In this document: in pieces, positions 1 to 42,647 of the stretch | Numbering within the stretch: position 1 is the stretch's first letter | Layout of the letters: every line of letters starts with the position of its first letter | Assembly: GCA_018664485.1 (NCBI GenBank) | Contig: JABJOE010000004.1 | Coordinates: forward strand, 1 to 42,647 | Direction: 5' to 3' | Source of the DNA: Candidatus Uhrbacteria bacterium | GTDB taxonomy: Bacteria; Patescibacteriota; Patescibacteriia; UBA9934 | DNA length: 42,647 nt | Program-made: the position numbers and the translations under genes | The notes under the pieces: generated by a model | Databases searched by the model: none | Told to the model about the DNA's origin: nothing | What the model saw: only the letters and a program-made list of their open reading frames with translations

Positions 1-3
1 ATC

Positions 4-78
4 TGTCGGCTTATGGGTCCCGACACACTTCGTCAACGTACCTTTAGTACGTATCCTAGTGTGCCACCCATGCACCGA
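4..78 (+). repeat. Nested-hairpin intergenic repeat, copy E1 (truncated by window edge)
   Basis: TCGG(6-9)/CCGA(75-78), TGGGT(14-18)/ACCCA(66-70), CACAC(24-28)/GTGTG(59-63), ACGTAC(36-41)/GTACGT(47-52) nest as one long hairpin; near-identical to 16777-16852. Confidence 0.7.
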
Positions 79-425
79 AATCTCATCCAACAAAATGCAG
101 AGATCTACGATGTGGGCGACTTGCGGGGTCGTAACCCCGGTACTCGATGTCGTACAGTAGGTACGACTTACTTTATTCCTCGCTATTCACCCGTACCTCA
201 TTCAATACAGTTAGCAGATACGATTTATTTTACTTCGCTCCTCGCTACGCACTGATATCTCATCCCATATAATGGACAGGGTTATATGTTGGCGACCTTT
301 TGGCTTGCGGGTTAGATTTAGCTGCGTAGCCATACAGATACCTTATTTTTGTTGTACGTAGACCTGTCGCGATAGCTTCACAAGGACCTTGATTATTTAG
401 GAGGAATCGTTTAACCTAGGTCTAT

Positions 426-16757: not shown

Positions 16758-16876
16758 ACGTTCAGATCTGGGTCATTGTCGGCTTACGGGTCCCGACAGA
16801 CTTCGTCAACGTACGTATGAGTACGTTTCCTGGTCTGTCACCCGCGCACCGAAACTAACCACATATCTGAACGTTT
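16756..16876. repeat. Nested-hairpin repeat copy E2 bounded by a perfect 12-bp inverted repeat
   Basis: AAACGTTCAGAT (16756-16767) / ATCTGAACGTTT (16865-16876) enclose an E1-like hairpin (TCGG 16779/CCGA 16849; CGGGT 16787/ACCCG 16840; CAGAC 16797/GTCTG 16833). Confidence 0.75.
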
Positions 16877-16987: not shown

Positions 16988-17152
16988 TATACCAATCCTC
17001 TTCGAGGCCGTAGAGGGTTTAGTACTTGGGCCATTATCGGCTTACGGGTCCCGACAGGCTTCGTTTATGCGTGGAGAGTATCCGGCGAAGCCGGACCAGG
17101 CTTCGCCTGGCGGCTCCTCGTCGTTTTCCCTACGCCTAAAATGACCTAAATA
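16988..17152. repeat. Partial/diverged repeat copy E3 bounded by a perfect 10-bp inverted repeat
   Basis: TATACCAATC (16988-16997) / GATTGGTATA (17143-17152) flank TATCGGCTTACGGGTCCCGACAGGCTTCG (17035 on), whose 5' half matches E1/E2; extra hairpins CCGGCgaaGCCGG and CCAGGcttcgCCTGG. Confidence 0.65.
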
Positions 17153-17166
17153 GATTGGTATATTGT

Positions 17167-39966: not shown

Positions 39967-39999
39967 GTTAGTTTTTAGGGTTCTGTCCCGTAGCTCCAC

Positions 40000-40027
40000 A
40001 AAAACACCAGTTTTCTGGTGTTTTTGC
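40000..40027 (+). terminator. Intrinsic terminator ending the mur/division segment
   Basis: AAAAACACCAGTTTTCTGGTGTTTTT. Confidence 0.85.
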
Positions 40028-40045
40028 ATTTATACTACCTATTTT

Positions 40046-40379
40046 CTATTTAACGGAGGGTTTTGACATAAATTACTTCCGAGGACATTCAGGGTTAATA
40101 TCCAGCAAGAATAATCTAATCGCAGAACTTTTGCTGTCTTTTCCCTAAACGTAGGGTTTATTCAATTAAAAGCACCTGAGGCTTGTTAAAGGATTTTCGG
40201 TATAAATAATGAATAACAAAGCCGCCTCCGTTGTATCTGCTTAATAATAACAACGGACGCCCGGTTTTGTCGTTATTTATGACGAATATATTCCTTTGAT
40301 AAACGAAGCGCTTTTTACTTGCAGAAACCCGTAGTCCCCTTGACAAAAGAGTGATTTTCTGCTATTCTGCGATGTTCGA
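40046..40379 (+). repeat. Spacer copy A: modules M1-M2, conserved hairpin, promoter
   Basis: M1 CTATTTAACGGAGGGTTTTGAC...; M2 CCTAAACGTAGGGTTTATTC...GAGGCTTGTTA..TAACAAAGCCGCCTC; hairpin TCCGTTGT(40227-40234)/ACAACGGA(40250-40257). Confidence 0.75.
40340..40368 (+). promoter_or_regulatory. Strong sigma70-type promoter upstream of lipoprotein gene 1
   Basis: TTGACA (40340-40345), 17-nt spacer, TATTCT (40363-40368). Confidence 0.75.
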
Positions 40380-40548
40380 ATGTGGCTGAAAAAGTGCCAA
40401 CGAGCAACAGTTTAAAACCTGGGTAGGATTTAGTTCCTTCCCCAAAACCCCCGGCAGGCATTTGCCGGCCAAAATACGGGATGGCAATTTAGCATCCTAA
40501 ACGATCCGCCCACGGGCACAACCAGCCCCTAGGGCTACCGGAGACGAC

Positions 40549-41436
40549 ATGAACGCAACCCTGAAGACCCTGATCGGCCTGAGCCTGATCGGCCTGAGCC
40601 TGGTGGCCTGTAGCCCCCACGGCGACAATGACGACACCCTCGACACCGGCACCTCCGACGATGATGGTGAGCTGTCGAGCGCCGGCGAGGGCGACGATGG
40701 CGACGACGGTGGCGACACCGACGACACCGACGAGCCCGAGGTCGATGCGGACGGCGACGGCTTCACCGCCGACGAAGACTGCGACGACAGCGATGCTAGC
40801 ACCTACCCCGGCGCCCCCGAGCTCTGTGACGGCCTCGACAACGACTGCGATGACGTGGTCGACGAAGATGCCATCAACGACTCGACCTGGTACCGCGATA
40901 GTGATGGCGATGGGTACGGTGATCCGTCCATCTCGACCAGCGCCTGCGATGTCCCGAGCGGTTTCGTCGGCAACGGCGACGACTGCGACGACACCGACGC
41001 CAGTGCATACGACGACTGCACCAGTACGGACACCTGCACCATCGACATGGAGTGGGAGCCCGAAGGTGGCGCCAAGGACCTTCTCTCGCTCAGCTACGAG
41101 CTGGACTGCGATAGCAGCTACGAGGACTGGGATGCGACCGTCGCGGCCACCTCCAGCAGCTCGATTGCAGGCAGCTTCAGCCGTGAGATGAGCGAGGGCC
41201 AAGTCTGCATGTTGCGGATGAACGCCACGTCTCAGCTCGAGACCGAGAGCTACCGCGTCCGCTACGGCTGCGAGAGCACTTCGGGGTCCGAGTCCGGCGA
41301 CATCAACCAGGGTACCTGGAGTGTGACCGTCGACTGCGGAACGCCCATGGTCCAGACCATCAGCGTCAACAGCAAGGACAGCGGCACCGTCGACGGCTGC
41401 GAGACCGAAGTCATCCCGTTGGTTCTGGCCTTCTAG
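40549..41436 (+). CDS. Lipoprotein with MopE-type putative metal-binding repeats
   Basis: GGAGAC RBS; LSLIGLSLVAC lipobox; DADGDGFTADEDCDDSDASTYPGAPELCDGLDNDCDDVVDEDA and a second DSDGDGYGDP...GDDCDDTDASAY unit. Confidence 0.88.
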   Translation: MNATLKTLIGLSLIGLSLVACSPHGDNDDTLDTGTSDDDGELSSAGEGDDGDDGGDTDDTDEPEVDADGDGFTADEDCDDSDASTYPGAPELCDGLDNDCDDVVDEDAINDSTWYRDSDGDGYGDPSISTSACDVPSGFVGNGDDCDDTDASAYDDCTSTDTCTIDMEWEPEGGAKDLLSLSYELDCDSSYEDWDATVAATSSSSIAGSFSREMSEGQVCMLRMNATSQLETESYRVRYGCESTSGSESGDINQGTWSVTVDCGTPMVQTISVNSKDSGTVDGCETEVIPLVLAF

Positions 41437-41568
41437 CCTGAGCCTTCTCCCGTGATAGGGGCCCGACAGAGTATGCCTTCTGGCTGCTCGACTGGGTCCC
41501 TACATTTGCATCTAGATTATATTAGCTTCTTTATTCAATGCGCTTTTATGGCGTTTTTTGTCTTTTCT

Positions 41569-41896
41569 ATCTAACGTAGGGTTATTTAATAAAAAAGCTT
41601 CAGAGGCTTGTTAAAGGTTATTTGGTAGAAATAATGAGTAACAAAACTGCCTCATTTCCTATCTAACAGAGGGTTTTAGCAAATAAATTGCTTCCGAGGA
41701 CGTTTAGGGCTAGATCCGGCAAGAATAGCCTGATCGCAAAATCGCCTCCGTTGTTACCAAAAAAGATACAACGGATGCCCGGTTTTGCAGGCTATGATGA
41801 CGGATTTGTCCCTAGATACCGCAGGCGCAATTTACTTTATAAAACCCGTAGCACCCTTGACAAAAGCCTCTTTTTCTGCTATTATTCGGTGTTCGT
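41569..41896 (+). repeat. Spacer copy B: modules M2-M1 (order swapped), conserved hairpin, promoter
   Basis: M2 CTATCTAACGTAGGGTTATTT...GAGGCTTGTTA..TAACAAAACTGCCTC; M1 CTATCTAACAGAGGGTTTTAGC...; hairpin TCCGTTGT(41747-41754)/ACAACGGA(41768-41775). Confidence 0.75.
41857..41885 (+). promoter_or_regulatory. Strong sigma70-type promoter upstream of lipoprotein gene 2
   Basis: TTGACA (41857-41862), 17-nt spacer, TATTAT (41880-41885); flanks AAACCCGTAG..CCCTTGACAAAAG and CTGCTATT..GTTCG shared with copy A. Confidence 0.78.
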
Positions 41897-42028
41897 TTAA
41901 AAGTGAGGCAACTCACATAATAGACGAAATCATTAATAACACTCCCTAAGAGCGGGCACTTTGCCCATGATTCAGCTTGCTGGATCAACGGGCATTCTGC
42001 CCATTCACTGCGCAACCCTGGAGACCCC

Positions 42029-42647
42029 ATGACGCGCTTCCCGACCCTGACCACCCTTCTGGCCCTTGCGGTCGTCACTCTCAACACTGGCTGCTTCGAC
42101 GACGTCGAGCAGAAGATCTGCAAGGAGTATGACAGCTTCACCGCCGATCAGCAGGTTCTCCTGGACATGGCCGGAGTGGAGTCCGGCGAGTCCGCTTGCA
42201 TCGTCTATCACACCGACACTGAGTGCAACTACGTCTACGTGGTCGGCGAGATCGACGACGGAGGCTGGTACGGCGATAACGCCGACGAGTGCACCGGTGA
42301 GGACGAGCCGGAGGAGCCCACCGACGACGACAGCGACGGCTTCGACTCCGACGAGGACTGCGACGACGACGACGCGACCATCAACCCGGATGCAGAAGAG
42401 GTCTGCGACGGTGTCGACAATGACTGCGATGGCACTGTCGACGGCGAAGACGCCACCGATGCCGAGGTGTTCTACACCGACAGCGACGGCGACGGCTACT
42501 GCAGCACCGAGTTCGAGACGGTTTGTTCCGGAGACGAGGCTTCGACCTCCGTTTCCGAGACCGACTGTGACATCGACGGCGACGGCGACTTCGACGGCGA
42601 CGACGAGGACTGCGACGACGACGACGCAGACATCGATCTGACCTGTG
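42029..42647 (+). CDS. Lipoprotein with MopE-type putative metal-binding repeats (3' truncated by window end)
   Basis: Read by eye from ATG 42029, absent from ORF track: MTRFPTLTTLLALAVVTLNTGCFDDVEQKICKEYD...DSDGFDSDEDCDDDDATINPDAEEVCDGVDNDCDGTVDGEDA...; GGAGAC RBS. Confidence 0.88.
   Translation, partial: MTRFPTLTTLLALAVVTLNTGCFDDVEQKICKEYDSFTADQQVLLDMAGVESGESACIVYHTDTECNYVYVVGEIDDGGWYGDNADECTGEDEPEEPTDDDSDGFDSDEDCDDDDATINPDAEEVCDGVDNDCDGTVDGEDATDAEVFYTDSDGDGYCSTEFETVCSGDEASTSVSETDCDIDGDGDFDGDDEDCDDDDADIDLTC

Follow-up and report, generated by a model that had tools for sequence, protein, structure and literature searches.

The closest described systems to the repeats reported here are the ERIC and RU-1, RU-2 and RU-3 sequences of enterobacteria, which the available text of PMC2759123 presents as small mobile MITE-like sequences of 100–180 nt, dispersed between genes. 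REP elements are shorter, at 20–40 bp in the available text of PMC3733652. For the proteins encoded beside our repeats, the closest system is MopE of Methylococcus capsulatus (PDB 2vov, 2vow and 2vox), in which Cu(I) is liganded by His132, His203 and kynurenine 130, formed from Trp130 (PMC3423442).

The window analysed is the whole of contig C2 (42,647 bases, GC 45.7%) of a Candidatus Uhrbacteria genome comprising 10 contigs and 981,522 bases, a size that, like the gene content, is consistent with the CPR (Patescibacteria) label given initially. Its right-hand end carries two same-strand units, each with an AT-rich spacer, a near-consensus promoter (10/12 and 11/12 matches) and a GC-rich gene for a protein with MopE motifs; the open reading frames and promoters agree with the initial annotation, which read the units as an expandable array of surface proteins. 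We consider it likely that the locus instead combines two ordinary lipoprotein genes with undescribed interspersed, mobile-like palindromes, termed rods, the genes and the rods being two independent things that would overlap here. The features are as follows.

39999..40026, plus strand: intrinsic terminator of the upstream mur/divIC/PpiC-like gene run, consisting of a perfect 12-bp inverted repeat and, after it, a tail weakly rich in T, CATTTATACT
40034..40127, plus strand: partial copy (left half) of a type-X rod, 79% identical to 41646-41741
40151..40332, plus strand: rod A, an imperfect long hairpin of ~180 nt, family R1 (cmsearch 80.6 bits, E 2.4e-17; fold z of the region -4.35)
40340..40368, plus strand: lipoprotein 1 promoter, TTGACA-17-TATTCT, directly 3' of rod A (10/12 match)
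40549..41436, plus strand: lipoprotein 1, 295 aa, with lipobox SLVAC, Asp-rich linker, MopE repeat (PF11617) and C-terminal all-beta region (GC3 0.85)
40777..40866, plus strand: PF11617 repeat in lipoprotein 1 (50.3 bits)
41505..41515, plus strand: 3' end module TTTGCATCTAG after a GC-rich hairpin, found also at lipoprotein 2 and at further orphan genes rich in GC
41563..41654, plus strand: partial copy (left half) of a type-Y rod, 80% identical to 40148-40228 over 81 nt (81% by BLAST)
41669..41849, plus strand: rod B, an imperfect long hairpin of ~180 nt, family R1 (cmsearch 188.1 bits, E 1.4e-44, itself in the model's training set; fold z of the region -4.26)
41857..41885, plus strand: lipoprotein 2 promoter, TTGACA-17-TATTAT (11/12 match)
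42029..42647 (contig end), plus strand: lipoprotein 2, first 206 codons of 359 aa (PF11617, GC3 0.84)
42356..42442, plus strand: PF11617 repeat in lipoprotein 2 (44.9 bits)
16763..16869, minus strand: R2 rod, intergenic (77.5 bits, E 1.2e-14, itself in the model's training set)
1..95, minus strand: R2 rod truncated at the contig end (48.4 bits, E 1e-7)
17021..17154, minus strand: weak or degenerate R2 rod (31 bits, E 0.0015)

The two spacers resemble each other far beyond chance, as had been proposed, with BLAST E values of 3.5e-17, 6.5e-17 and 5.1e-15 and blocks of 74–87% identity. Their modules stand in a different order, spacer A having the left half of X followed by rod Y and spacer B the left half of Y followed by rod X; the units are therefore not simple duplicates. 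The two proteins share the MopE segment only (72% over 138 nt). The 5' UTRs, annotated as GC-rich, are richer than the spacers (38% and 40% GC) but reach only 53% and 48%. The terminator at 39999..40026 closes the upstream gene run, so lipoprotein 1 probably has a transcript of its own. Promoter-like sites number six, against 1.1 +/- 1.3 in shuffled sequence. Relatives contain the same promoter type without a rod, and matches there to spacer B plus its promoter span the promoter only.

A covariance model built from three hairpins (rod B and the copies on C7 and C10) detects family R1, a rod-like imperfect palindrome of ~180 nt, in seven copies in the genome. Besides the two lipoprotein spacers, R1 occurs upstream of ftsH, rpsL-rpsG-fusA, ftsZ and rnpB (the last identified as RNase P RNA by Rfam), with one copy beside a GC-rich orphan gene. 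The spacer is indeed reused, but in front of other genes, and is not a regulatory cassette specific to lipoproteins. A strong promoter directly follows most R1 copies, and in 5/7 (A, B, ftsH, rnpB and rpsL) the right end falls a few nucleotides upstream of a TTGAC(A/G) -35 box. Across the three training copies, 91.5% of cells are paired, compared with 31–41% when slid, and 19 of the 55 pairs have changed on both sides, values reached by 0/500 shuffles. Of two further copies, that on C10 has a fold z-score of -8.5 and the ftsH copy one of -0.58, so that the latter folds no better than shuffles. The R1 model has no match in the 72 other genomes of the order, and an exact-pattern search of GTDB genomes and viral contigs returned nothing.

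Ranking raw hairpins by pair count proved too noisy, and rods beyond R1 were located by a GC-corrected fold scan. The resulting sister family, R2, was modelled from 21 rods and comprises about 50 copies in the genome (56 matches at E<=0.01, three of them in the window). It is present in 22/23 genomes of the family, with up to 94 copies, and, under stricter filters, in 46/73 genomes of the order. Covariation over the 21 copies is again pronounced, with 89.2% paired against 28–40% slid and 83 double-change cells against 26.3 in shuffles (0/500). Of 43 rods examined (7 from R1 and 36 from R2), all but two are clear of predicted ORFs, and the two overlaps involve dubious ones; the orientation of the 43 copies relative to genes is mixed, and such context counts are limited by the naive ORF calls. 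Many start or stop codons have an R2 rod ending 6–20 nt away. At C3:151918-152045 and C3:163905-164025 an additional copy of one arm accompanies the rod, much as half-rods do in spacers A and B; this arrangement could allow alternative pairing or stem from recombination in the past. A third rod type, CGAGGAGGCATAG...CTATACCGACGAGG, falls outside both models and occurs at C7:29451, C4:113951, C3:176651, C5:40801 and C6:103851.

The one rod site compared systematically is the rplJ-rplL gap, which measures 213 nt here with its rod and at most about 105 nt, rodless, in 18 relatives. In the relative G016, rods lie between rpsL, rpsG and fusA, where the rpsG-fusA gap of the present genome is 80 nt. 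These two comparisons give a pattern of lineage-specific insertion. The rods are thus multi-copy, intergenic, imperfect palindromes, as expected of interspersed palindromes of the ERIC/MITE kind, with presence and absence visible at one orthologous site, rplJ-rplL. They share size, dispersal and lineage-specific gain with ERIC, RU and MITE sequences as the available text describes these, a likeness at the level of description, and differ from ERIC and RU in occurring in a small-genome CPR lineage, in their conserved internal-loop sequences (GCARGA/AUGAUGA) and in the strong covariation of their arms. Like REP elements in the available text of PMC3733652 and PMC12306157, they are dispersed extragenic palindromes, and they are longer, about 100–180 nt. 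The rods are undescribed. R1 and R2, whose arms stay complementary through compensatory change, probably behave like non-autonomous mobile palindromes of the ERIC/RU/MITE kind, gained lineage by lineage; for R1, mobility is suggested by its absence elsewhere and by the analogy with R2.

The rods could alternatively be functional structured RNAs or promoter-proximal control elements (an insulator, a processing site or an UP-like element) placed before strongly expressed genes. Compensatory change on the scale observed could equally mean a functional RNA, and the spacing of R1 from -35 boxes and of R2 from start and stop codons would suit a control element. Nevertheless, R1 is absent from 72 relatives, the rplJ-rplL rod is absent from 18, the orientation to genes is mixed, and no rod reaches the gathering score of an Rfam family, the sole Rfam assignments in the vicinity being RNase P RNA and a tRNA; we therefore regard this explanation as rather unlikely. 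Sub-threshold Rfam matches to mir-598 in the spacer region, antisense to coding repeats, were judged to be chance. Within the preferred reading of mobile-like palindromes, the AT-rich right arm of R1 next to the -35 box could still serve as an UP-like element; alternatively, the placement near promoters could reflect an insertion preference. We advance more tentatively the idea that this CPR order has, in its rods, a new class of nucleic-acid elements, long, structured and either mobile or regulatory, each genome having several subfamilies and as many as about 94 copies in less than 1 Mb, inserting beside promoters and the ends of essential genes and bearing a conserved internal-loop code read by some protein, either as RNA or as folded single-stranded DNA.

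Tandem duplication of a cassette (spacer, promoter and lipoprotein gene) to enlarge a surface-protein array, as first envisaged, would account for two adjacent units with a rod, a promoter and the 3' TTTGCATCTAG module in common. The sequence beyond the window edge, where the array was expected to continue, argues otherwise. The final 119 bases of C2 match the end of C3 exactly and are unique in the genome, and the join, which is based on this overlap and on synteny and not on reads, completes lipoprotein 2 at 359 aa with a stop at joined position 43108. A promoter, rpsB and tsf follow, and no third spacer-lipoprotein unit lies between lipoprotein 2 and rpsB-tsf in the joined sequence, the very outcome that the initial annotation had named as refuting its reading. 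What stands between the PpiC-like gene and rpsB is a pair of genes and no expanding array. With only two units, a rod that also fronts ftsH, rpsL, ftsZ and rnpB, a differing module order and proteins that have only the MopE segment in common, a cassette array is very unlikely.

The join is supported by the relative G003 of the same family, which keeps the order divIC, PpiC-like gene, three other genes and rpsB; since that interval has no lipoprotein in G003, the pair represents an addition or a replacement. In G005, from another genus of the family, a MopE lipoprotein gene lies upstream of rpsB (L297, G005:C23, 1952-2962, minus strand), encoding a MopE-repeat protein with a long Asp-Ala-Gly-Thr repeat. 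The slot upstream of rpsB is thus reused in at least one other genus and may be a recurrent site for surface proteins. Other contig ends also overlap exactly (C1R-C4R over 95 nt, C3L-C4L over 139 nt and C7L-C10L over 68 nt), which allows further ordering of the 10 contigs.

Integron-like capture, with the rods as attC-like sites importing GC-rich foreign gene cassettes, would fit long imperfect hairpins of which several adjoin GC-rich orphan ORFs, but it is very unlikely and was rejected on two grounds. The rods are dispersed singly between core genes and not arrayed one per cassette. The only tyrosine recombinase in the genome (PF00589) has XerD/XerC as its best-scoring models; it passes the generic XerA/integron integrase model NF040815 but remains well short of those for integron integrases (139.5 vs 265 and 88.6 vs 435 bits).

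CPR genomes are generally regarded as streamlined. The present one, at 0.98 Mb, contains more than 50 long palindromic repeats, some of them before rpsL, ftsH, ftsZ and rnpB, with sister copies throughout the family. Such repeats would imply a part for non-coding mobile-like DNA in shaping CPR regulatory regions, and the rod structure model, having been tested, can be used to annotate them.

Both lipoprotein ORFs contain one PF11617 repeat (Cu-binding_MopE, putative metal-binding motif), and the check proposed in the initial annotation places both above the curated cut-off of 27 bits, at 45.6 and 41 bits. Their start regions read CCGGAGACGACATG and CTGGAGACCCCATG. The lipobox SLVAC of lipoprotein 1 is canonical, but LNTGC of lipoprotein 2 fails the strict pattern. 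Neither LspA nor Lgt came up in a simple motif search of the genome, although such a search may overlook them. A structure model of lipoprotein 1 made without an alignment is poor (mean pLDDT 47.3) and places nine strands at residues 163-291, in a strand-rich C-terminal half. NCBIfam and PHROGs give no match to either protein. The sole significant PDB match of both is MopE 2vov (E 9e-5 and 6.8e-5), where the PF11617-type acidic motif aligns with residues 5-54 of MopE*. The two proteins carry export signals, and MopE is secreted; in contrast to MopE, the lipoproteins have no match to its copper domain (Kyn130, His132 and His203; PMC3423442).

The Cu(I) ligands of MopE fall outside the matched residues in the alignments of both proteins, so copper binding is unsupported and the Pfam name of PF11617 should not be taken to imply it; lipoprotein 1 has one His in its 295 aa. 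Residues of M. capsulatus MopE near the matched region have been linked to weak Cu(II) binding, and Ca2+ is reported to protect MopE from proteolysis (PMC3423442). Considering the DxDxDG pattern together with this protection, the two proteins are probably Asp-rich metal-binding surface lipoproteins, with Ca2+ the most likely ligand. MopE-repeat proteins of Deltaproteobacteria/Myxococcota and of Saprospiraceae MAGs carry the same acidic repeat, at up to 71% identity over short segments, and have mainly this repeat, not whole proteins, in common with ours.

MopE repeats had been thought out of place in this genome. Within the order, PF11617 repeats are present in 64/73 genomes, with up to 42 repeats, and they are rarer class-wide (58/144 sampled genomes); the motifs are an order-wide trait and not contamination. 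A literature search of partial coverage returned nothing linking MopE or such repeats to CPR bacteria. The genome itself has 27 PF11617 repeats, spread over three loci and five genes. Synteny links the C6 locus to MopE clusters of G005 and G012, and the gene next to it, C6:14451, adjoins MopE clusters in G001, G016 and G022 as well. No R1 rod lies near the other MopE genes of the genome (C1 and C6). The two genes probably belong to a set of Asp-rich MopE/thrombospondin-type-3-like surface proteins that is typical of the order, each with its own strong promoter and a GC-hairpin 3' end. The proteins would be exported, lipoprotein 1 by way of its canonical lipobox, and the acidic repeat segment probably binds Ca2+ and stiffens, presenting the C-terminal beta domain, perhaps for attachment or cell contact.

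With GC3 values of 0.85 and 0.84, the two genes rank highest among 926 naively called ORFs (mean 0.44), and many other short GC-rich ORFs are dispersed through the genome. Codon bias of highly expressed genes was ruled out as the cause, rpsL, rpsG, fusA and ftsH having GC3 of about 0.37–0.40. Since the compositional contrast of the two genes is real, import, or a history common to accessory genes rich in GC, is still likely. Lipobox-like starts are commoner in GC-rich ORFs (GC3 >= 0.55), at 9/111 vs 10/725 (Fisher p 0.0003), the naive calls including spurious ORFs.

GC-rich orphan genes also have a common 3' end, in which a GC-rich hairpin is followed by (T)TTGCATC and an abrupt drop in GC. 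It is seen in the window at 41505-41515 and at C10:10140, C6:116316, C6:149496(-), C7:93494, C7:128978, C5:52954(-) and C3:31516. A GC-rich stem lies just upstream in 12/223 TTGCATC sites, compared with 0–5 for ten control 7-mers. This shared hairpin and TTGCATC end of GC-rich orphan genes is undescribed, and a wider scan detected related tails such as TTTGCTTTTAAA.
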